Source: a virus. From it: a stretch of 27,714 nt of DNA. A program made the position numbers and the translations under genes. Every line of letters begins with the position of its first letter. The stretch's first letter is position 1. The stretch is taken from positions 1 to 27,714 of the IMG/VR virus record IMGVR_UViG_3300028198_000016; one strand, given 5' to 3'. The notes beneath the pieces were generated by a model. That model had not been told where the DNA came from and ran no database searches. It was given only the letters and a program-made list of their open reading frames with translations. This document shows positions 2,354-26,675 of the stretch, one piece after another.

Positions 2354-3454
2354 TTAAACCTGTGAACCTACTGGAGGTGCATACCATTTTGCAATAGTTA
2401 CATCACCGACATCAGTAGCATTTGAATCTGTACTCACACTATATTTTTCTATTGTATTTATGCCTCCACTGCCACCATGCCCAGCAGCACTATAACCATA
2501 AGTTTCTGATGAACACCCTGTATGTGCATGACGAGTTGCAGTTAACTCTCCATTCATAATAGTAGAATTTCCACCAGATGCAAAAGAATATCTACGAATA
2601 CTATTAACATACCCAGTATCAAACCCTCCAGTTATATATCCATGTGTTAAAGATGACGTTCCTGAGGAAGAATCAGTAGCAGGATCACAATCACCTACAT
2701 CAGTAGCATTAATATCAGTAGCATAACTAAACTTATCAATTGTATTATCTCCACCTGGAGTTGGACCTCCGCCTCCAGCAGAATAACCATGTGTAGATGA
2801 TGATGATCCTGTATAACAAGTTCTAGCTACTGTTAAATCTGCAATATCTGTTGCATTATTTGTACTACCAGTAGATGCAAATGCAAACTTTTGTATATTA
2901 TTAAGATATGTGTGGCCTCCACCTTGTGGCCCATTATTACCACCACTATGATAACCATGAGTTTCTGATGATTGGCCAGTACCCTGTCCTGACGCAACTG
3001 CTAAATCACCATGATCTGTTGCGTTTCCTTCTGAAGCAAAACTCCACCTATCAATTGTAATATTAATTGGTTGAGTAACATGTCCACTACCAGAAATATA
3101 ACCATGAGTTTCTGATGATTGGCCAGACATATGTGATCTACCAACTCCTGTTACATCACCTACATCAGTAGCACTTACATCTGATGTAAAACTCCATCTT
3201 TGAATATCTGTTGCGTATGGTGCAGCTCCTGATGGACTTAAATTACCAGCAGCACAATATCCTTTGACTGTTCCCGGGAATGTCCAAAGTGGTTGACCCC
3301 ATTCAGGTGCAGTAACAGATTCATTCATAGTAAGAACTTCTCCAGCATCTCCTTTTGCAAGACGAACCCAATCAGTTCCATCAAAGTAGGCAACATCACC
3401 TTCTGCTTGACTTTCCAAATCTATTGTAACACCTGATATTTTTTGTATGGCCAT
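2354..3454 (-). CDS. Kelch-like repeat tail fibre protein, paralogue 1 of 3 (366 aa)
   Basis: Residues 1-52 form a short N-terminal module (MAIQKISGVTIDL, GDVAYFDGTDWVRLAKG, EVLTMN, APEWG) that is shared with the next two genes. The rest is six copies of a unit of about 50 residues with core SSETHGY-x-x-GG, a hydrophobic I-x-x-F/W-SFAS strand and NATDVGDLT. Repeats of this kind resemble kelch or RCC1 blades, so a beta-propeller is predicted. No catalytic residues are evident. Ribosome site AAGGAA. As the third-transcribed member of a tandem triplicate in the fibre region it is probably a receptor-binding or decoration protein. The fold is inferred from repeat length and pattern only. Confidence 0.85.
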   Translation of the reverse strand: MAIQKISGVTIDLESQAEGDVAYFDGTDWVRLAKGDAGEVLTMNESVTAPEWGQPLWTFPGTVKGYCAAGNLSPSGAAPYATDIQRWSFTSDVSATDVGDVTGVGRSHMSGQSSETHGYISGSGHVTQPINITIDRWSFASEGNATDHGDLAVASGQGTGQSSETHGYHSGGNNGPQGGGHTYLNNIQKFAFASTGSTNNATDIADLTVARTCYTGSSSSTHGYSAGGGGPTPGGDNTIDKFSYATDINATDVGDCDPATDSSSGTSSLTHGYITGGFDTGYVNSIRRYSFASGGNSTIMNGELTATRHAHTGCSSETYGYSAAGHGGSGGINTIEKYSVSTDSNATDVGDVTIAKWYAPPVGSQV

Positions 3455-3464
3455 TATCTATTCC

Positions 3465-4559
3465 TTAATATTGATGTCCAGACATTCCATCTGTAGCTAT
3501 GGTTATATCTCCTACATCTGTAGCTGTTGTGTTAGAAGCATATGCAAATTTTTGTATTACATCAACCACAGTTGTACTACCAAAAGCTCCACCACAAACA
3601 TATCCATGAGTTGTTGATGATGCAGCTGAAGAATGTCTAATAACAGCAGTCAAATCTCCGTGATCGGTAGCATTTCCACCAGTAGCAAACGAAACCCTAT
3701 CAATAACATTATAGTCAGTAGGCGCACCCGTATCGTGTCCTCCACAACAATAACCATGTGTTAGAGAAGATACTCCTGCTGGTGAATGTCTTGTAACAGT
3801 TATATCTCCTACATCTGTAGCATTTGTTTGTGTCGCAAATGGATATCTTTCAATACTATTAATTACTGTTCCACTCGGTATACCCGGTGCTACATGCTGA
3901 ACACCTCCCATGGCATAACCATGTGTTTCTGATGAACATCCCGCACCAGCATATTGTGCTTTTACCGCATCAGCCCAATCTGTAGCATTTGTTTGTGAAG
4001 CAAATGGAAACTTATCAATAACATTAGTATTAGCATTAGTACCATTTTCACCACCATATGTAAATCCATGAGTACATGATGATGCGGGTGCTGCTCTCAC
4101 TTTCATAATTCCCGTTAAGTCTGCCCAATCAGTTGCATTTATATCTGCTGTAAAACTAAAACGATCAATCTGATTATAATTCACAAGAGGTGAACCCTTG
4201 TATCCACTAGTTACAAAGCCATGAGTTTCAGATGAATGGCCGTTACAAAATCTACGACTAGATACTAGATTGCCAATATCGGTACTATTACCATCTGTAA
4301 CAAGACTATATTTGTCAATATTATCTGAATAAGTTTCACCCGGTCCTGTCCACCCACCACATGAATATCCAGTTTGTGTTCCAGTAAAATAACAAGCTGC
4401 ACCCCATCGAGGTGCTGTTTCAGTATCATTCATAGTAAGTCTTTCACCAGCTATACCTATTGCTAATCGTTGCCATGAACTTCCATCAAAATACATAACA
4501 TCACCAGCAGTATCAGATCCTAACTTAATTGCTCTTCCCGGTATTTTTTGTGTCGCCAT
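3465..4559 (-). CDS. Kelch-like repeat tail fibre protein, paralogue 2 of 3 (364 aa)
   Basis: Same architecture as its neighbours on both sides. The N-terminal module is MATQKIPGRAIKLGSD with GDVMYFDGSSWQRLAIG, GERLTMN and APRWG. Five clear blade-like units follow, with cores SSETHGFVTSG, SSCTHGFTYGG, SSETHGYAMGG, SSLTHGYCCGG and SSTTHGYVCGG, plus a degenerate first one (TGYSCGG). Cysteines cluster in or just before the GG turns (YSCGG, YCCGG, YVCGG), which is less marked in the other two copies. Ribosome site AAGGAT. Gaps to its neighbours are 10 and 18 nt, so it belongs to one transcript. Role inferred as for paralogue 1; the copies differ mainly in the loops between units, as expected for surfaces that choose a ligand. 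Confidence 0.85.
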   Translation of the reverse strand: MATQKIPGRAIKLGSDTAGDVMYFDGSSWQRLAIGIAGERLTMNDTETAPRWGAACYFTGTQTGYSCGGWTGPGETYSDNIDKYSLVTDGNSTDIGNLVSSRRFCNGHSSETHGFVTSGYKGSPLVNYNQIDRFSFTADINATDWADLTGIMKVRAAPASSCTHGFTYGGENGTNANTNVIDKFPFASQTNATDWADAVKAQYAGAGCSSETHGYAMGGVQHVAPGIPSGTVINSIERYPFATQTNATDVGDITVTRHSPAGVSSLTHGYCCGGHDTGAPTDYNVIDRVSFATGGNATDHGDLTAVIRHSSAASSTTHGYVCGGAFGSTTVVDVIQKFAYASNTTATDVGDITIATDGMSGHQY

Positions 4560-4577
4560 TATCTATCCTTATACTGT

Positions 4578-5681
4578 TTAAAAATGTGATGATGCGTGAT
4601 GAGCTCTCAAGGTCGTTAATCCTGATCCTAAATCTCCAACATCAGTAGTATTTGACTCGTTAGCAAATGCAAATTTACCTATATCCGTATAAAGTTCACC
4701 GCCAGCACAATAACCATGTGTCATTGATGACATTCCATTTCCTCTAGCACCACCACCGCCACCGCCACCCCAGAGTGATGCTCCATGGGTTAGATTTCCT
4801 ACATCAGTAGCGTTTGCAGATGACGCAAATATATATTTGTCTAAATTAGTGAAGAGATTGCCCGCTCCTAAAAAATAACCATGTGTTTCTGATGAAGCAC
4901 CAGAAGCATGGCCAGATACTGCTGTTACATCTCCTACATCATCAGTTGTTGTTTCATTAGCAAAAGAAAATCGAGAAATATGATTTACTTGAGGACTTCC
5001 ACTCCCGGCAATATAACCATAATCAGCAGTTGAATCAGTTACTCCACCACCCTCTGTTCCAGAATGAGTGTTTGGTAAATTACCTACCAAAGTTGCGTTT
5101 GCTGTGTTAGCAAATGCAAATTTTTCTAAGGTAGTAGCTGAAACTTCGCCGCCAGTAGCATAACCATGTGTCAAACCTGAAACTGGTGTCATGTGATGAT
5201 TAACAACAGTTAAATCAGCAAGGTCAGTTGCATTACCACTAGGATTTGTATTCTGAAAACTTTGAATCGTATTTACACTAATAGCATTATTTTGACCACG
5301 ACCTCCAGCTACAAACGAATGTGTTTCACTTGAAAACCCAGAAACAGCATGTGATGGTGCAACTAAATCACCAGTTGAATCAACTGCATTTCCATCTGTA
5401 GCAAATTCATGTGAATATATATCTGAGTAAAAATACCAGACACCTGTTCCACCACCACCATAGTGATTAGCACCACCCATAGAAAATCCTCTAATACTAC
5501 CACGATAAACCCAATCGGATGTACCCCATTGTGGAAATGTTCCAGCGTCATTGACAACTAATACTTGTCCTGCTTCTCCTTTTGCAAGTCGCACCCAATC
5601 AGTTCCGTTATGATACATAATATCAGAACTTACTTGTGAATCTAATTGTATTGCTCTACCTGGGACTTTTTGTAATGCCAT
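4578..5681 (-). CDS. Kelch-like repeat tail fibre protein, paralogue 3 of 3 (367 aa)
   Basis: First-transcribed of the three tandem copies. Its N-terminal module is MALQKVPGRAIQLDSQ with DIMYHNGTDWVRLAKG, GQVLVVN and PQWG. Units follow with cores SSETHSFVAGG, SGLTHGYATGG, STADYGYIAGSG, SSETHGYFLGAG and SSMTHGYCAGG, separated by FAFANTANAT/FSFANETTTDDVGD-type strands. A run of nine glycines before the last unit (residues about 308-316) is an unusual insertion. Ribosome site AAGGAT, 9 nt after the stop of the collar-domain fibre. Its N-terminal module also occurs inside that upstream fibre (residues about 141-177 there), which suggests the triplicate arose from or exchanges with it. Function inferred as host recognition. 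Confidence 0.85.
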   Translation of the reverse strand: MALQKVPGRAIQLDSQVSSDIMYHNGTDWVRLAKGEAGQVLVVNDAGTFPQWGTSDWVYRGSIRGFSMGGANHYGGGGTGVWYFYSDIYSHEFATDGNAVDSTGDLVAPSHAVSGFSSETHSFVAGGRGQNNAISVNTIQSFQNTNPSGNATDLADLTVVNHHMTPVSGLTHGYATGGEVSATTLEKFAFANTANATLVGNLPNTHSGTEGGGVTDSTADYGYIAGSGSPQVNHISRFSFANETTTDDVGDVTAVSGHASGASSETHGYFLGAGNLFTNLDKYIFASSANATDVGNLTHGASLWGGGGGGGARGNGMSSMTHGYCAGGELYTDIGKFAFANESNTTDVGDLGSGLTTLRAHHASSHF

Positions 5682-8272: not shown

Positions 8273-8881
8273 CTATACCTTACTATAAAAATGTGTCATA
8301 CAATATCTACCCAATCCTTGATCTCTGTATTTATTTTCTATTTTTACTTTATCTACTTCATGTAAATAATAGCTTGGAAACATTATCATTCTATTATGTA
8401 TACACTCAACTGTTTCATTTGATTCTGGAAATCTTAAATTTCCATCTTCAAATCTTTTTGGTTCTTTATAAAACCATATCAAAACTGTATGCATAAACGA
8501 ATCAAAATGTTCTCCATAACTATTTGAATCTTCATAATAATTAACTATCGAACAATCATAGTTAGTATTTTCAAATTGTCTTGCAGCTGGTGTCGTCTGT
8601 CTATAATTTTCTAAAACTTCTTGTGATAATATTTTTTTATATACTGTTAATATATTTGAATCTTCTCTATTGTCTGGATATATTCCTTCCAGATAAATTC
8701 TATTTAAATTGGCTACTGGACTAACACCATAACTACCTGGGAACTTTCCATCTGTATAAAGATTGTCTTGTCTATACCATTCAAGTTCTTCCCAAATTAA
8801 ATCTTGTTCTTCGATTGAATAAAAATCATCAACAATCATATATGGAAAAGCTTTATCATCTGTACATAATGTAAAATTCAT
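8273..8881 (-). CDS. 2OG-Fe(II) oxygenase-like protein (202 aa)
   Basis: The double-stranded beta-helix signature is visible: iron ligands H125 and D127 in EHFDSF, a following strand and turn VLIWFYKE and FEDGNLRF, third ligand H174 in FPSYYLHEV, and R192 in GRYCMTHFYS as the likely 2-oxoglutarate carboxylate anchor. This is the HxD...H...R layout of 2-oxoglutarate/Fe(II) dioxygenases, related to prolyl hydroxylases. Length is typical of phage copies. The substrate is unknown; it sits between a glycine-rich fibre and a conserved fibre-associated protein, so hydroxylation of a virion protein is one possibility and a host target another. The ATG at 8881 has only a weak ribosome site (AAG in ATAAGTATT), so coupling to the upstream gene 12 nt away is likely. 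Confidence 0.82.
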   Translation of the reverse strand: MNFTLCTDDKAFPYMIVDDFYSIEEQDLIWEELEWYRQDNLYTDGKFPGSYGVSPVANLNRIYLEGIYPDNREDSNILTVYKKILSQEVLENYRQTTPAARQFENTNYDCSIVNYYEDSNSYGEHFDSFMHTVLIWFYKEPKRFEDGNLRFPESNETVECIHNRMIMFPSYYLHEVDKVKIENKYRDQGLGRYCMTHFYSKV

Positions 8882-18464: not shown

Positions 18465-19034
18465 CTATTCTATGTAATGACAATATGAATGTATAAAATA
18501 CTTTGATTCTGATATTGGTTTAAGTCCCGCATGAAACCATGGCCACAAAGGTGGAAAAATTATCATGCGACCTTTTCTTGCTTCTATCTTTGCTGTCTTA
18601 TTTGACAAATAAAATTCTGTTTCTCCCCCTTCATCAACATCATTCAAATATACAAAAAATGCTAAAAATCTTCTGGATGTTTGTAAATCTCTTACGTCAA
18701 CATGAGAATCAAATCTATCATAATCATTATTTAAATATCGCTTCATTCTTACTGCTTCGTAACCATGTTTTTCAGGCCACATTGTTGGAGTGATTAAACA
18801 TTCCTTTTTATAATGTTCAACATAAGTCTGAAAGACTGTCATCATCCCTTCCTGAACAGATTTCCATTCCTCATGTTTTGTTAATATAATCTGTTCAAAA
18901 GATATTCTATTATCAGCATCCTTAACATGAACCTTCTCAAATTTGTCTTTTGATACTTCAAATTTTTCTATCAAAGATTCACAAGAATCATCAGTTATTA
19001 CATTGTTATATACCTTCACAAAATCATCAATCAT
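18465..19034 (-). CDS. 2OG-Fe(II) oxygenase, prolyl 4-hydroxylase type (189 aa)
   Basis: All key residues of the 2-oxoglutarate/Fe(II) dioxygenase fold are present: H111 and D113 in SHVDVRD, the strand FLAFFVYLNDVDEGGETEF that typifies prolyl 4-hydroxylases, H168 in WPWFHAGLKP, and K178 in ESKYFIHSY as the 2-oxoglutarate anchor. The length matches single-domain phage copies. The substrate cannot be read from the sequence. It is placed between the gp7-position gene and gp8, and is driven by its own pair of late promoters, so it is made with the virion proteins. This fits modification of a structural protein, but action on a host protein late in infection is not excluded. Ribosome site AAAGGAC. 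Confidence 0.88.
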   Translation of the reverse strand: MIDDFVKVYNNVITDDSCESLIEKFEVSKDKFEKVHVKDADNRISFEQIILTKHEEWKSVQEGMMTVFQTYVEHYKKECLITPTMWPEKHGYEAVRMKRYLNNDYDRFDSHVDVRDLQTSRRFLAFFVYLNDVDEGGETEFYLSNKTAKIEARKGRMIIFPPLWPWFHAGLKPISESKYFIHSYCHYIE

Positions 19035-21028: not shown

Positions 21029-22870
21029 TTAGATTATCGTTTCCGCGACCATTGTAATATTAATTGCAGCTGTGTCAGTCGAATCAGTTGTTATTATTTG
21101 TTCTCTTAATGGAGTAATATCCTGATTGTTAGTTCCAGGTGTTACAGTCATCTTGATATATGATTTTCCATCCGAAATAGTATATGGAGTAAAATTATTT
21201 AAAACAACTTTGCCAGTAGTATAATCTATTGTTCCAAGATTCTGAGAACCATCAGCAAGAGTCATATACGTTGTTGGAATATCTATAGCAACACTATCTG
21301 TTGAACTAGTATAAGTTGATCTAACTAATTTAACATTACCAAGACTATCATCAATCAATGTATATGTAAATCCATCACTCGCCGTAAAGGCAGTACTGGT
21401 AAGTGTTCCCTCAGCTAGCGTCGTATTAAACTCCATAGTGTATGTTGCAGCTACTGCTAAAGTTGTTGGAGCAATTTGCATCTGATATCTAATAGATGTT
21501 TTACTATTGCGTATAGAACTATTCGTATCATCTATTACTCCTGCTAACTTAGAATATCTAAACTTATTATCAAACTTTTGCAAACTCGTTGAGAAGTAAT
21601 TTGTAATAGTTGAACTTATTAGAGATTTTAAAGTATCTTCATTCGTCAACAAAGTAACAGGATCATAATTAATAGTTGTGTCAATTAAAATATAATAAAA
21701 AATAGGATCAACAATTTCTGGTGTTACAGTAACTACATTAGTCTTTTTCAATATAGAAGTTTTAATTGAATCTTTCGTAGCTGCACTAAATGCTGTATTG
21801 CCTTTTGGTTTAACTGCTATATAAACTTTACCATATACTGCTGGACTTGCATCCTCACCACCATATACCGTAATAGATTCTATATCACTTCTCTCACCAA
21901 GCAAGATAGCTTTATAATCTTCTTTAGTTGTTGCACGTTTTTGTGCTTGATATAATTTTGGTGCATTTGTTTTTATTGAAGCAACAGATTCAATCTCTGC
22001 CCCACCTGAAGCTGCACTAGCAACTGTCAATGTATAGTTAGCTGATGATAAACCAGCAACTGTTCCGACAGCCGTAAATGAACTTGCCTTATTTGCGGCT
22101 AAACCACTTGTAACTAAATACTCAATAAAAATAATATTAGCATCAGCTAACTGAGCTCCAACTGAACCATCACCAAATAAAATTTCGTATTTTTGTTCTT
22201 CCACTTCTTGTATCCAAAAAACTTTTTGTGTAGATGCTATTGTTGTAACATCTAATGCATTAGCATTTGTCCAAGTAGTTACTGCTGTATCTGATGATGA
22301 ATTTTGAACTTGAACTGTAATAGTAGAAATATCAACATTTCTATTTGGCACAACAAATCTTTGTGTTGTATCAGCTAAGTTGACAGTATATTTTTTATTA
22401 ACAATTGTTCCTTCTCTGATCGGTAAATTAGTAACTGAATAGGCACCAGCAATCGGATAAATTGTTTTGTTGGCTGTTGTTGTAAACGTATAACTTGTTG
22501 CACTAATACTAGTAGTAAATCTTGTATTTTTTGCAATTGATAAAGATGTGGGAGAACCACTTGGAGTAAAAGTCATATCCAAGTATGCAGTAGAAGCAGT
22601 GACTGATGTTGGTATAACATTCAAATGTTTTGCATGAGAAACTACTGATTCTCTAAGTGAAGCAGAATCTATAAACATTTCATTGACTGCCATGTTTGCA
22701 TAGTATCCCATATAGTGAGTATTGTATGCTAAGACATCTAACAAAACATCCATACCACTTCCAGTAAAATCATAATCAGCAAATTGACTTTGTGCTGATA
22801 AATATGATTTTAAATTTGACTTGATACCATCAAATTCTAAATCTGTTATTGTTAATTTATTGCTTGCCAT
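21029..22870 (-). CDS. 6: Baseplate wedge subunit gp6-like (613 aa)
   Basis: The N-terminal helix region (LKSYLSAQSQFADYDFTGS, GMDVLLDVLAYNTHYMGYYA, NEMFIDSASLRES; residues 20-75) is characteristic of gp6-like wedge proteins. FGDGSVGAQL near 230 and TTKEDYKAILLGERSDIESI followed by VYGGEDASPAVYGKVYI (about 310-352) fit the baseplate J-like core shared by contractile tails and type VI secretion. T4 gp6 has 660 residues, so the length is right. gp6 dimers hold the wedges together and form the inner baseplate ring. It starts directly after the gp25 stop, with GGAGAGG as ribosome site, as expected for proteins made in a fixed ratio. Confidence 0.92.
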   Translation of the reverse strand: MASNKLTITDLEFDGIKSNLKSYLSAQSQFADYDFTGSGMDVLLDVLAYNTHYMGYYANMAVNEMFIDSASLRESVVSHAKHLNVIPTSVTASTAYLDMTFTPSGSPTSLSIAKNTRFTTSISATSYTFTTTANKTIYPIAGAYSVTNLPIREGTIVNKKYTVNLADTTQRFVVPNRNVDISTITVQVQNSSSDTAVTTWTNANALDVTTIASTQKVFWIQEVEEQKYEILFGDGSVGAQLADANIIFIEYLVTSGLAANKASSFTAVGTVAGLSSANYTLTVASAASGGAEIESVASIKTNAPKLYQAQKRATTKEDYKAILLGERSDIESITVYGGEDASPAVYGKVYIAVKPKGNTAFSAATKDSIKTSILKKTNVVTVTPEIVDPIFYYILIDTTINYDPVTLLTNEDTLKSLISSTITNYFSTSLQKFDNKFRYSKLAGVIDDTNSSIRNSKTSIRYQMQIAPTTLAVAATYTMEFNTTLAEGTLTSTAFTASDGFTYTLIDDSLGNVKLVRSTYTSSTDSVAIDIPTTYMTLADGSQNLGTIDYTTGKVVLNNFTPYTISDGKSYIKMTVTPGTNNQDITPLREQIITTDSTDTAAINITMVAETII

Positions 22871-23287
22871 TTATCGTAACCTCTCCAAAAACAATGAAAT
22901 TTCTATGGGCTCTGGTGAATTGACTACATGGAAAAAAATTGAAACATCAAAACCATTTTTATCTATATCTCCACCAACAACAACATCATCTACCACAACT
23001 CTTGGTTCATAGTTTGCTAAACATAATTCTACAGCTAATTGAATATCATATTTCGTATGAGCAGTAGCCAGGCCAAACAAATGTCTAGTTACTCCTCCAT
23101 CAACTTCAGGATGGAATGGTTTATCATACTTGTTTGTCAATATGAGATTCTTAACAGCTCGTTTAACAGCCTCTACATTTGTCTTTCGTACAATGTCTTT
23201 TGTTATAGGATGAGCAACAAAATCCAAATCCAGATCAGCCCATTGTCTGTTATGTGTAGAAAGTCCCTTTGTATATATTGCTGCCAT
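22871..23287 (-). CDS. 25: Baseplate wedge subunit gp25-like (138 aa)
   Basis: A GPW/gp25 family protein: RQWADLDLDFVAHPITKDI (14-32), NVEAVKRAVKNLILTNKYDK (37-56), FHPEVDGGVTRHLF (58-71) and the typical NYEPRVVVDDV (92-102), ending in a beta-hairpin EPIEISLFLERLR. T4 gp25 has 132 residues. gp25 is a small wedge protein next to the sheath-initiating ring, and gp25-like proteins are also core parts of R-type pyocins and type VI secretion baseplates. Ribosome site AAGGA, 8 nt before the ATG. It is followed at once by gp6. No exact late promoter precedes it; transcription probably enters from the promoter at 23525. Confidence 0.92.
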   Translation of the reverse strand: MAAIYTKGLSTHNRQWADLDLDFVAHPITKDIVRKTNVEAVKRAVKNLILTNKYDKPFHPEVDGGVTRHLFGLATAHTKYDIQLAVELCLANYEPRVVVDDVVVGGDIDKNGFDVSIFFHVVNSPEPIEISLFLERLR

Positions 23288-23538: not shown

Positions 23539-25470
23539 TTAGTAAGATTTTGCAAAAGGACCGAAATGCCATTGCTGTCCTTTCTTCTGAGCCCAATAAA
23601 ATAAATCAGTCATAAAACTTTCAAATGTTTGTTTTGAACTTGGTTTATTCATTGTTTTTTGCATCACGGCTAATAAATAGATAAAATCTACCATCTGCAT
23701 CATTACAGTATTAACTTTCTCTCTCCGCGTTCCTCTTGTCCCCATAGAATGCTCCAAATTATCTATCCAATTCTCCCAGGCCTCAGTCTTATTAACCTCT
23801 GTTTTATCAGCAAGTGCCTCTCGATATTTTTGCTTCATTTTATCAGCAGATAACTGCGTCCCTGTCCAAGAATCTTTAAATTCTTTGTAAGATACTTTAG
23901 ATTTTAAATCAGACCTAGAACTCATATTAATCTTCCAATCATATTTTTTTAAAAAAGGAGTTACTATTTTATGAACTGTTGTCCAATAAGCCCTGTTAAA
24001 TTTTTTTGTATGAGTGTCAGATAATTTAGGATAACCCGATATGCCGGGTAATTTCAAAGATGCTAATTTTTTGTCAAATCTATCCTTAGGAACTTTACCA
24101 AGTTGTGCCGGCATATTAGCTTCTCCAAATTCATATGTAATATCTGTCATATGACTTTGATTTGATCTAAAAGTTAGTTTATAACTTCTGCCAGCCTTAT
24201 TATTATCAGTTAAAATAATATTTGATGTAACTGATGAAAACCCTTTAAGTTTTTTATTATAATGTGGATCGAACTCAATTGTTTTTATCACTACTTGTGG
24301 CATGTTTCCTTTTTGTCCTTTTACTGTCGGAAATAAATTTACTTCATCCCACAACAGTTGACCTTTTCCACCACGATTTTTCTTTAATGAAATTCCTTTA
24401 ATAACCTTGTCGTGAAATGCATTTTGCATAATCGTATTTACTTTTGCAACTGTTGTAGCTGCTTCTAATTCTTTTTTAACCTTTTCATATGCACCACCTG
24501 TCGTATCTAATAACCAAATATCAGCAGGATTCCAAGAATCTTTTTTAGCAAACATTTTTATTGAAGCTTCATCCAATGAACCACCAGTACCCTTTGTAAT
24601 AAGATCAGATATAAACTGCATAAAATCTTCACCAGGTTTCATTCCCGTTCCATCACGATTATAAACTTCATAATGACCAACTTTTAAGCCAACCCCATAT
24701 TTATCAGCTGCACTTATTATTTCTTTATATTGTCTATCAAAATGCAACCACCAATCAGTTTCATCATATCTATTAACTTTATTTAAACCAGAATGAATCG
24801 CTTTTAATCCTGATTTAGGATCATTATACATCTTCTCAAAACTAACCCAGTTAGGTGTTCTTTTTTCTAAGACTGCTTTAAATATTGCTGTTGATATTAA
24901 TTCCTGTTGAGCTGTATCAATTTTTACTGTACCTATTTTACCATCTTTACCTTTTTTGGATTTAGTGGAAGCCTTGGAAGGATCTCTCACACTTATGCCA
25001 GTTTCAGTAAGTTTAAATTTATACAATAATTGTGGTGTACCACCAACTTTCCACGCCTTCTCACTTTGTCCTCTGGGAGCTTCTTTCAAACCATCCCATA
25101 TGGAAAACACAAGCCAGTTATTTTTTGTGTCTTTTATTTTATCAATCGTTAATATAGTATGTTCTTTTTTAGTATATGCTAAATCTAAATAACCATATGT
25201 TTTATAATTTCTAGCATCCGTTATTGCTTTAATTGTTTTTTTTACAGTCGCAAAATCTGGAGCCTTGGAAGGACCTTTACTTGAAAGATACAAACCATGT
25301 GCCTTGGCAAAAGTTGCACCTTTTTGTGGTTTAGCATTTATACCAAAAAAAGAATTAGGATCTACTTTTCCTTTTATAAATACAATTTTTTCAAACCACT
25401 CATAAAAAGATTTAAGGGGAGCTGTACCACCAGTTTTTGTTTGGGCCCAGGTTCTATCTTTTGCAGCCAT
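23539..25470 (-). CDS. Unknown 643-aa protein with a PAD...ISLKK motif (possible nuclease-like domain)
   Basis: I do not recognise a named family. The protein is long, Lys-rich and soluble, with no signal peptide or membrane helix. Two linked motifs stand out: KKDSWNPADIWLLD (309-322) and, after a helical stretch of about 35 residues, KGISLKKNRGGKGQLLW (358-374). A 'P-x-D ... ISLK' pair followed by a G-rich QL stretch occurs in PD-(D/E)xK-type nuclease cores, so a nuclease or nuclease-like fold is possible, but spacing is larger than usual and the second acidic residue is not obvious. The C-terminus contains MMQMVDFIYLLAVMQKTMN and a final tail of aromatic residues. It lies 6 nt after the small CTS-like gene and before the baseplate block. 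Confidence 0.75.
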   Translation of the reverse strand: MAAKDRTWAQTKTGGTAPLKSFYEWFEKIVFIKGKVDPNSFFGINAKPQKGATFAKAHGLYLSSKGPSKAPDFATVKKTIKAITDARNYKTYGYLDLAYTKKEHTILTIDKIKDTKNNWLVFSIWDGLKEAPRGQSEKAWKVGGTPQLLYKFKLTETGISVRDPSKASTKSKKGKDGKIGTVKIDTAQQELISTAIFKAVLEKRTPNWVSFEKMYNDPKSGLKAIHSGLNKVNRYDETDWWLHFDRQYKEIISAADKYGVGLKVGHYEVYNRDGTGMKPGEDFMQFISDLITKGTGGSLDEASIKMFAKKDSWNPADIWLLDTTGGAYEKVKKELEAATTVAKVNTIMQNAFHDKVIKGISLKKNRGGKGQLLWDEVNLFPTVKGQKGNMPQVVIKTIEFDPHYNKKLKGFSSVTSNIILTDNNKAGRSYKLTFRSNQSHMTDITYEFGEANMPAQLGKVPKDRFDKKLASLKLPGISGYPKLSDTHTKKFNRAYWTTVHKIVTPFLKKYDWKINMSSRSDLKSKVSYKEFKDSWTGTQLSADKMKQKYREALADKTEVNKTEAWENWIDNLEHSMGTRGTRREKVNTVMMQMVDFIYLLAVMQKTMNKPSSKQTFESFMTDLFYWAQKKGQQWHFGPFAKSY

Positions 25471-25476
25471 CTACCT

Positions 25477-25704
25477 TTACTCCACTCGTATCCACTTCAT
25501 GTCTTTAGCATGCTTGACTGAATCGTTCCACTCTTTCTCATTATGAAATATAGTAAACTCATCATGAGCTAAAGTAAATCCAAGTACTTGTCCCTTCTTC
25601 AATCGCTTCTTATGTTTCTCTGCAGCTTTGAGAACATTACGATCCTTCATATCTGCCCAGCTCTTTACTTTTGCTTCCATAAATTCTTTGTATGTTTTTT
25701 CCAT
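25477..25704 (-). CDS. Small basic protein with capsid-targeting-like N-terminus (75 aa)
   Basis: It opens MEKTYKEFMEAKVKSWADM and continues with a Lys-rich stretch KAAEKHKKRLKKGQVLGF and an aromatic tail FTIFHNEKEWNDSVKHAKDM. The opening is close to the capsid-targeting sequences of T4 internal head proteins (MKTYQEFIAEA-type), which the gp21 protease cuts after Glu; here the cut would fall at FME|A. If so, the mature basic protein would be packed in the head and injected. This is an inference from about ten residues. The start overlaps the HAD gene stop by one base (TAATG), so expression is coupled. No other family is recognised. Confidence 0.72.
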   Translation of the reverse strand: MEKTYKEFMEAKVKSWADMKDRNVLKAAEKHKKRLKKGQVLGFTLAHDEFTIFHNEKEWNDSVKHAKDMKWIRVE

Positions 25705-26180
25705 TAGACTCCTAGCCCTTTCAGTTGTTTGATGGTGCTGTTTGTATTAACATGAAGAACGCCGGTCCCACCAGCACTCTCCCACTCTCTTATATTCTTC
25801 TTATGGTCATCAATCAGTATTATATCTTTACCAGCATAATTCCTCTTCTCTTTGCGCTGTACAATATTGACTTGACTTTTTGGAATGCCCAGATTATTTT
25901 GACACCATTGAGTTTTGCCCTTTATTACATTTTTGTCTTGATTACAAACGGATGGACAAGCAGATAGTATCTGTGGTTTATATGATTTGATATACTTCCA
26001 GAGCTGTTTGCCACCAGACTCCCAGCCACATTCAGCCCAGAACTCTGCACCAGTACCAGCATCACTATAAAAGAAGTCATCAATTAGTCCCTGATTCAGT
26101 TTAGGATTACCAAGATGTTTCTTGATACTACCAAGCAAATCTACTAATACACCATCCATATCACAAAATATTTTAATCAT
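25704..26180 (-). CDS. HAD-superfamily hydrolase, 5'(3')-deoxyribonucleotidase-like (158 aa)
   Basis: Motif I is FCDMDGVLVDL with nucleophile D7 and acid/base D9; motif II is probably LSACPS with S73; a candidate motif III lysine is K88 in IKGKTQW; motif IV is ILIDDHKKN with D124 and D125. The short length and DMDGVL-VD start fit 5'(3')-deoxyribonucleotidase-like HAD proteins, which remove phosphate from deoxynucleoside monophosphates. A phage could use one to adjust nucleotide pools, but the substrate is not shown by the sequence. Ribosome site AGAGGAT; a TATAAATA box lies 36 nt upstream inside the end of the preceding gene. The stop overlaps the next start. Confidence 0.85.
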   Translation of the reverse strand: MIKIFCDMDGVLVDLLGSIKKHLGNPKLNQGLIDDFFYSDAGTGAEFWAECGWESGGKQLWKYIKSYKPQILSACPSVCNQDKNVIKGKTQWCQNNLGIPKSQVNIVQRKEKRNYAGKDIILIDDHKKNIREWESAGGTGVLHVNTNSTIKQLKGLGV

Positions 26181-26208: not shown

Positions 26209-26655
26209 TTATTGTATATTTATAAGTTTTATATCCCATTCTTTTCTCAAATGAGCAATTGTTTTCTTCTCGTCAAAATGGGCTAAATGGATATTACGCT
26301 TCGTTCTGGTATATCCATATGCGAAGCCTTTCTCATATTCCAGAAGGTCCTCTTCATCAAAACGGTACCCCTCTGGATATAGGTATTTTGCACAAATCTC
26401 AAATAGCCATCTGACCCAAGAACTTGTAGTTTCACTATTGCCCATAGTAAATCCAATTACCATAGCTTCATCTCTGACTTCCATATCACGCTTTAATAAC
26501 AAATGAATGATATCGTGGTTATAAAGATTTATTGCTCCAGTAAGGCTAATCGGACTTTTTGGATTTTCTAATAACCATACGAACCAATGAATATCGGACT
26601 GTATTTTATATGATGGTTTTTTACGCCATTTTTTGAGTGCATTGGATAAAAGCAT
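26209..26655 (-). CDS. COQ4-like protein with HDxxH-x11-E motif (148 aa)
   Basis: Residues 47-63 read HDIIH, eleven residues, then E63, which is exactly the HDxxH-x11-E metal-ligand motif of COQ4, a ubiquinone-biosynthesis protein. Around it are the helical segments DIHWFVWLLENPKSPI (21-36), DEAMVIGFTMGNSE (62-75) and SSWVRWLFEICAKYLYPEGY (78-97). It is shorter than cellular COQ4 (about 220-265 residues), so it would be a minimal core. COQ4 acts in removing the C1 carboxyl group from coenzyme Q precursors; whether the phage protein does this is unknown. No clear ribosome site precedes the ATG at 26655, and a TATAAATA box ends only 12 nt upstream. First gene of the minus-strand block in this window. 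Confidence 0.75.
   Translation of the reverse strand: MLLSNALKKWRKKPSYKIQSDIHWFVWLLENPKSPISLTGAINLYNHDIIHLLLKRDMEVRDEAMVIGFTMGNSETTSSWVRWLFEICAKYLYPEGYRFDEEDLLEYEKGFAYGYTRTKRNIHLAHFDEKKTIAHLRKEWDIKLINIQ
26217..26224 (-). promoter_or_regulatory. T4-type late promoter (TATAAATA) for the HAD gene
   Basis: Exact octamer inside the last codons of the COQ4-like gene, 36 nt before the HAD gene ATG at 26180, with AGAGGAT between. Confidence 0.65.
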
Positions 26656-26667
26656 GGTATTTGTAAG

Positions 26668-26675
26668 TATTTATA
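26668..26675 (-). promoter_or_regulatory. T4-type late promoter (TATAAATA) for the COQ4-like gene
   Basis: Exact octamer 12 nt before the ATG at 26655. If transcription starts about 6 nt after the box, as in T4, the leader is only about 7 nt and the message almost leaderless, which matches the absence of a ribosome site. Confidence 0.65.

Follow-up and report, generated by a model that had tools for sequence, protein, structure and literature searches.

The DNA considered here, hereafter called the window, is a stretch of 27,714 nt that an initial annotation had attributed to a T4-like phage. This attribution is borne out by the presence of gp25, gp6, and gp8 in the window, which indicates that the gene of interest is carried by a real phage. 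In this marine phage, that gene encodes P0001, a protein of 148 amino acids (aa), in an ORF that runs on the minus strand from 26655 to 26209 with its ATG at 26655-26653; the plus strand across 26209-26655 is interrupted by stops. The surrounding features, all on the minus strand, are as follows.

26668..26675, minus: TATAAATA, a T4-type late promoter core that ends 12 nt before the P0001 start codon
26209..26655, minus: Coq4-superfamily-like gene for P0001, 148 aa (from the ORF, family, and Coq4 matches)
26467..26517, minus: codons of HDIIH-x11-E (H47, D48, H51, E63), putative metal ligands (from sequence, conservation, and model helices)
25704..26180, minus: HAD-type NT5C-like nucleotidase, 158 aa (PF06941, E 9.6e-5, just below cut-off)
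25477..25704, minus: 75-aa gene in the same run (cluster C3, about 30 related loci; no Pfam match)
23539..25470, minus: 643-aa gene (no Pfam match)
22871..23287, minus: baseplate wedge gp25 (PF04965)
21029..22870, minus: baseplate wedge gp6 (PF21379)

The promoter core TATAAATA is found 10 times in the window, where 4.2 matches are expected, and nine of these 10 are on the coding strand, several of them just upstream of other window genes. Among phage relatives that form a clade with the window, 14 of 25 carry it within 36 nt of the start of the family gene. This placement suggests that transcription of the P0001 gene is probably late and driven by a T4-type promoter of its own. Members of the window clade keep the family gene beside gp25 and together with the nucleotidase gene, which in the window lies 28 nt downstream from the P0001 gene, has its own TATAAATA at 26217-26224, and accompanies the family gene in many relatives. 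The nearest cultured relatives of gp6 are from Mosig and HTVC008M, two phages of Pelagibacter (about 40%, by tblastn).

Other parts of the window were also distinctive. The 643-aa gene carries a KDSWNPADIWL-type segment, and the slot it occupies varies in size and content among close relatives. Two 2OG-Fe(II) oxygenases (18465-19034 and 8273-8881) are located inside the structural gene region, and three tandem proteins of ~365 aa with repeated SSETHGY...GG / FA...NATDVGDLT units (2354-5681) are probably tail-fiber paralogs.

The HDxxH-x11-E Motif and the P0001 Family

The COQ4 motif is HDXXH-(X)11-E, with a looser form of HDXXH-(X)10-13-E (PMC9774615). The initial annotation had reported that residues H47, D48, H51, and E63 of P0001 have exactly the HDxxH-x11-E spacing, and this observation was confirmed. 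Shuffled versions of P0001 contained the exact motif in 160 of 200,000 trials (~8e-4). Because this rate applies to a pattern noticed post hoc among ~30 genes, the motif in P0001 alone is suggestive rather than decisive. At the level of sequence it is conservation, unlike the chance rate of the pattern, that is decisive support for HDxxH-x11-E: the exact motif is present in 131 of 133 distinct homologs in which the region is intact. Only L047 (E to K) and L104 (GYYCLH...K) depart from it, and both look divergent or degenerate. Homolog scans relied in part on the adjacent segment VIGFTMG as an anchor, whose own invariance is in part an effect of ascertainment, and H47, D48, H51, and E63 lay outside the search patterns of the last viral scan and of the bacterial scan. 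The motif is also kept in five members with a VIGYTMG variant that were reached via their proline dehydrogenase neighbors.

Viral contigs, when scanned iteratively, yielded 4, then 23, and then 60 loci, and a single scan of bacterial genomes provided 80 of 108 loci. Two of these 80, in an Acidimicrobiaceae MAG (L065) and a Pelagibacteraceae SAG (L073), group among phage members and are probably phage contigs. The family is distributed across many bacterial phyla (Planctomycetota, Verrucomicrobiota, Bacteroidota, Chlorobiota, Spirochaetota, Cyanobacteriota, Pseudomonadota, and others) and at least three phage clades. Its members are annotated as “hypothetical”, and those borne on plasmids likewise as “hypothetical protein”. 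The bacterial members constitute an unnamed sister family of about 80 loci that shares the motif with P0001 at about 30-49% core identity and falls in the same clade in profile and tree. However, these proteins are usually 170-220 aa long, with ~20 extra N-terminal residues and a C-terminal extension, and their genes have neighbors that differ from those of the P0001 gene.

One phage member comes from the cultured cyanophage S-TIM5 (UTS51936; L005:1432-1758, a 109-codon ORF). This protein shares HDxxH-x11-E, LGF-x-LG, and YP-x-x-YR with P0001 and scores 41 bits against the family HMM, compared with at most 3.6 for 500 shuffles. It is shorter at both ends, is without the C-terminal tail, and has about 27-31% identity to P0001; judged by motif and profile score, it belongs to the family and places a cultured phage among the carriers.

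Several further arrangements were seen among bacterial members. The Coq4-like domain is fused to a C-terminal membrane segment in the cyanobacterial loci L072, L081, L085, and L104, and the same segment is encoded by a separate adjoining gene in L083, L087, L098, and L100. A bacterial operon at L107:25-5546 comprises genes for OmpA, vWA, an NMT1-type binding protein, a coiled-coil membrane protein, TelA, and a Coq4-like protein, and similar operons are present at L106, L108, L110, L134, L139, L058, and L060. The NMT1-type binding protein of this operon has an OmpA domain in Photobacterium. Two of these loci, L058 and L060, are on contigs listed as viral that are probably bacterial, as they carry this NMT1/vWA/OmpA/TelA operon.

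Remote Relation to the Coq4 Superfamily

When P0001 alone was searched, no Pfam family was matched, including Coq4 (PF05019; gathering cut-off 22.9 bits), and neither PHROGs (weak matches, E above 0.03) nor the PDB returned anything convincing. PDB sequence matches to LAGLIDADG endonucleases and laccase (E at least 0.2) were rejected as chance, as were all NCBIfam matches of the family and the Pfam matches of members to L27_N and Sp-DndD. A BFVD fold search with the P0001 model gave no match. PF05019 was the Pfam family matched by the most members, every time below the cut-off: four of 19 members (best 0.086), nine of 46 (0.011), and 13 of 41 bacterial members (4e-4). The best family members shown reached 17-19 bits.

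A relation to Coq4 had been proposed from the motif, and this proposal, to which the PF05019 search with P0001 by itself lent nothing, was upheld once the family profile was used in controlled profile-profile and profile-sequence comparisons. The comparison set consisted of 32 proteins above the PF05019 cut-off, drawn from searches centered on a cyanobacterium and a Kordiimonas genome. Alignment of a 76-member family profile to this set with hhalign gave a score of 72.3 (96.8%) over 140 columns, with HD..H and E in register and the alignment extending over the helices and the C-terminal tail. Viral members alone scored 61.5 and the phage clade of the window alone 44.1 (88.7%), versus at most 24.0 for 201 reversed or column-shuffled controls, at most 23.4 for 200 shuffles compared with the 76-member family, and at most 24.5 for about 30 genuine but unrelated families drawn from the same loci. 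At E<=0.01, a Coq4 HMM detected 72 of the 76 members; P0001 itself gave 7.5e-4, and the best E among 1520 shuffles was 0.049.

What is shared with Coq4/COQ4 is the HDxxH-x11-E site, the helical order, and the C-terminal tail, across 98-140 columns. In contrast, the P0001 family has DEAFVIGFTMG in place of the GE...F..aQ of the Coq4 set, scores below the Pfam cut-off, and is missing the N-terminal third of Coq4, with the alignment starting at profile column 97 for the family and 137 for the phage clade. A full-length Coq4 domain of about 220 residues, including N-terminal helices, is thus more than the 148 aa of P0001 provide. These profile comparisons support well, and make very probable, the conclusion that the P0001 family is a remote homolog within the Coq4 superfamily; P0001, which lies outside PF05019, is a remote member of that superfamily and not a Coq4.

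Two confident AlphaFold2 models of P0001 (pLDDT 89 and 91) are all-helical. Rather than being scattered, the motif residues cluster on two adjacent predicted helices: helix 44-53 carries H47, D48, and H51, and helix 60-73 carries E63 at its beginning. Foldseek comparison of model 1 with 350,542 PDB chains placed two Coq4-like structures from Nostoc, 6E12 (Alr8543) and 3MSQ, at ranks 1 and 2, and model 2 found 6E12 at ranks 2 and 4. The structural comparison suggested by the initial annotation brought the expected proteins to or near the top, but with weak matches for both models (E 0.7-3, TM about 0.46); the ranking of these predicted folds supports a Coq4 relation, whereas a Coq4 fold for P0001 is tentative. 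In 6E12, two Mg2+ ions are located at the motif and oleic acid is bound (PMC9774615).

Gene Neighbors and Candidate Functions

COQ4 is an oxidative decarboxylase that acts (at C1) on CoQ precursors (PMC11495197), and the initial annotation offered two options for P0001: an auxiliary gene of ubiquinone synthesis touching host respiration, or a lipid/quinone-binding fold used for something else. The tie to ubiquinone synthesis was not supported. Among 20 bacterial genomes that carry the family gene, UbiG is above its cut-off in nine and absent at that threshold in 11, and the corresponding numbers for Coq4 (PF05019) are three and 17. Moreover, ubiquinone genes were not seen adjoining any family member examined. 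Unlike Coq4, the family is thus tied neither to ubiquinone genomes nor to ubiquinone genes, and P0001 is probably not a ubiquinone-synthesis enzyme. The second option fits better because relatives of the P0001 gene abut genes for proline dehydrogenase or PutA and aldehyde dehydrogenase.

The family gene overlaps a proline dehydrogenase gene by 1 nt in phage L055, adjoins one in L056 and L059, and is separated from one by a beta-eliminating lyase gene in L054. A PutA-like gene overlaps the family gene by 4 nt in L049, and PutA ends 7 nt upstream of it in the Cellvibrio-type locus L070, with the same order in L074, L077, and L105. Aldehyde dehydrogenase is encoded just upstream in L025 and in the gammaproteobacterial locus L199, and a gene of the saccharopine dehydrogenase family ends 8 nt upstream in L057. 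In a quick tree, L054-L059, L057/L064/L225-L235, L049, the Cellvibrio loci, and L199 are on separate branches. The L054 contig (126 kb) carries a Gp23 capsid gene, and its T4-like phage island at L054:411-9767 encodes 2-oxoacid:ferredoxin oxidoreductase alpha and beta, ferredoxin, aldehyde dehydrogenase, beta-eliminating lyase, proline dehydrogenase, and a saccharopine dehydrogenase family protein, gene types that are very rare across phage records.

Viral records with the family gene encode aldehyde dehydrogenase in nine of 36 cases and proline dehydrogenase in six of 36, compared with 77 and five, respectively, among 50,697 control phage records, some of which look bacterial and most of which are cultured phages unmatched in habitat to marine IMG/VR contigs. 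When approached from the partner, 47 viral proline dehydrogenase loci included five seeds, and five of the 42 others had, no more than 6 kb away, a family gene absent from the results of the earlier scans (two of these five are identical in family protein). The proline dehydrogenase of “Microcystis phage MaAM05” was discarded as probably bacterial, being encoded beside fliM, pomA, and murJ.

Within the window clade, aldehyde dehydrogenase genes are present in L011, L025, and L038, tens of kb from the family gene in L011 and L038, and 2-oxoacid:ferredoxin oxidoreductase genes are present in L025 and L037. No aldehyde dehydrogenase or proline dehydrogenase gene is visible in the 27,714-nt window. 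Proline dehydrogenase is encoded in 19 of the 20 bacterial carrier genomes, a figure that stands without a matched background. Many bacterial members have unrelated neighbors (the TelA/vWA/NMT1/OmpA operon, SugE, pdxJ), so the link to amino-acid oxidation genes is recurrent, not universal. In the literature, we found no link between Coq4 and phages or PutA.

A role for the family in amino-acid oxidation, read from this gene context, seems to us evenly poised between right and wrong. With slightly less confidence, we propose that P0001 bears a metal, binds a lipid or quinone, and assists amino-acid oxidation that is linked to quinones. P0001 would be a minimal member of an unnamed Coq4-superfamily clade, small and all-helical, with a conserved putative metal site and a pocket, assumed from the Coq4 analogy, that would take a lipid tail. 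It may act alongside flavin- or NAD-linked amino-acid dehydrogenases at the membrane, for which proline dehydrogenase/PutA, aldehyde dehydrogenase, and enzymes of the saccharopine dehydrogenase family are candidates. There it could bind a quinone or another isoprenoid or acyl lipid and either hand this lipid to the dehydrogenase or stabilize the enzyme, such that electrons from host amino acids would enter respiration late in infection. Binding of metal and lipid by P0001 is presumed in this proposal, and quinone in particular is put forward tentatively as the ligand. PRODH binds CoQ1 directly (PMC4752965). The same role may extend to the phage of the window itself, where no partner gene is visible, and a change in host metabolism during infection is suggested by gene neighbors alone.

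The main rival holds that P0001 is a metal-dependent enzyme of amino-acid breakdown that has lost the quinone link, perhaps acting on semialdehydes or cyclic imines that arise from proline dehydrogenase and from lysine/saccharopine-type dehydrogenases. Proline dehydrogenase, PutA, aldehyde dehydrogenase, and saccharopine dehydrogenase family enzymes all produce or consume semialdehydes, and it speaks for this rival that they are common partners of the family gene, that the metal site is nearly invariant, and that the family is present in genomes without ubiquinone genes. However, imine ring-opening is spontaneous, and the small membrane proteins that lie beside, or are fused to, some family members suit a membrane role. 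Coq4 relatives also hold lipids, as with oleic acid in 6E12 (PMC9774615), and we judge a breakdown enzyme to be unlikely. A virion or assembly factor, active within the particle or at the membrane when the phage enters or leaves the cell and using its lipid pocket for membrane contact, is suggested by late transcription beside baseplate genes, from the gene's own TATAAATA promoter and at a position upstream of gp25-gp6 that is constant across the window clade. This reading is improbable given that other phage clades carry the gene by metabolic genes or terminase, that bacterial members are not within prophage structural modules, and that the gene is absent at the corresponding position in Mosig and HTVC008M.

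Pelagibacter uses ubiquinone, and it is the host of the nearest cultured phages, which together with the exact motif and the remote Coq4 homology could indicate a true ubiquinone-pathway helper, a short phage Coq4 that raises host ubiquinone synthesis. This is slightly less probable still: the protein is below the Pfam cut-off without the N-terminal third or ubiquinone neighbors, and relatives occur in genomes that lack UbiG over the cut-off, among them Bacteroidota, Planctomycetota, and cyanobacteria. That the motif arose by chance in an unrelated phage protein, small and helical, would agree with the absence of a Pfam match for P0001 alone, the chance-only PDB matches, and the weak fold scores. 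That reading is already disfavored, and is the least credible of all, given the conservation in 131 of 133 homologs, profile scores three times the best control, and an alignment with Coq4 that runs along the helices and C-terminal tail.

The P0001 gene resembles phage auxiliary metabolic genes in that a metabolic protein of host type is encoded in the genome of a lytic-type phage, with relatives located beside genes for aldehyde dehydrogenase, proline dehydrogenase, and 2-oxoacid:ferredoxin oxidoreductase. The window clade differs from typical cases in that the gene is in the late baseplate region and its enzymatic role is putative. A wider proposal, which we consider doubtful, is that this widespread unnamed clade provides amino-acid dehydrogenases, especially proline dehydrogenase/PutA, with a quinone or lipid adaptor across bacteria that differ in their quinones. 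Several phage lineages would then have acquired it, in some cases along with proline-, aldehyde-, and 2-oxoacid-oxidizing enzymes, drawing host amino acids into respiration in the course of infection.

These proteins (about 108-148 aa, one from a cultured cyanophage) offer simple models for the poorly understood Coq4 metal site. Should the proposed role be right, the Coq4 superfamily would reach beyond ubiquinone synthesis, and an unannotated family of bacteria and phages would gain a testable partner in proline dehydrogenase/PutA. It would also hint that phages commandeer the amino-acid respiration of marine bacteria.
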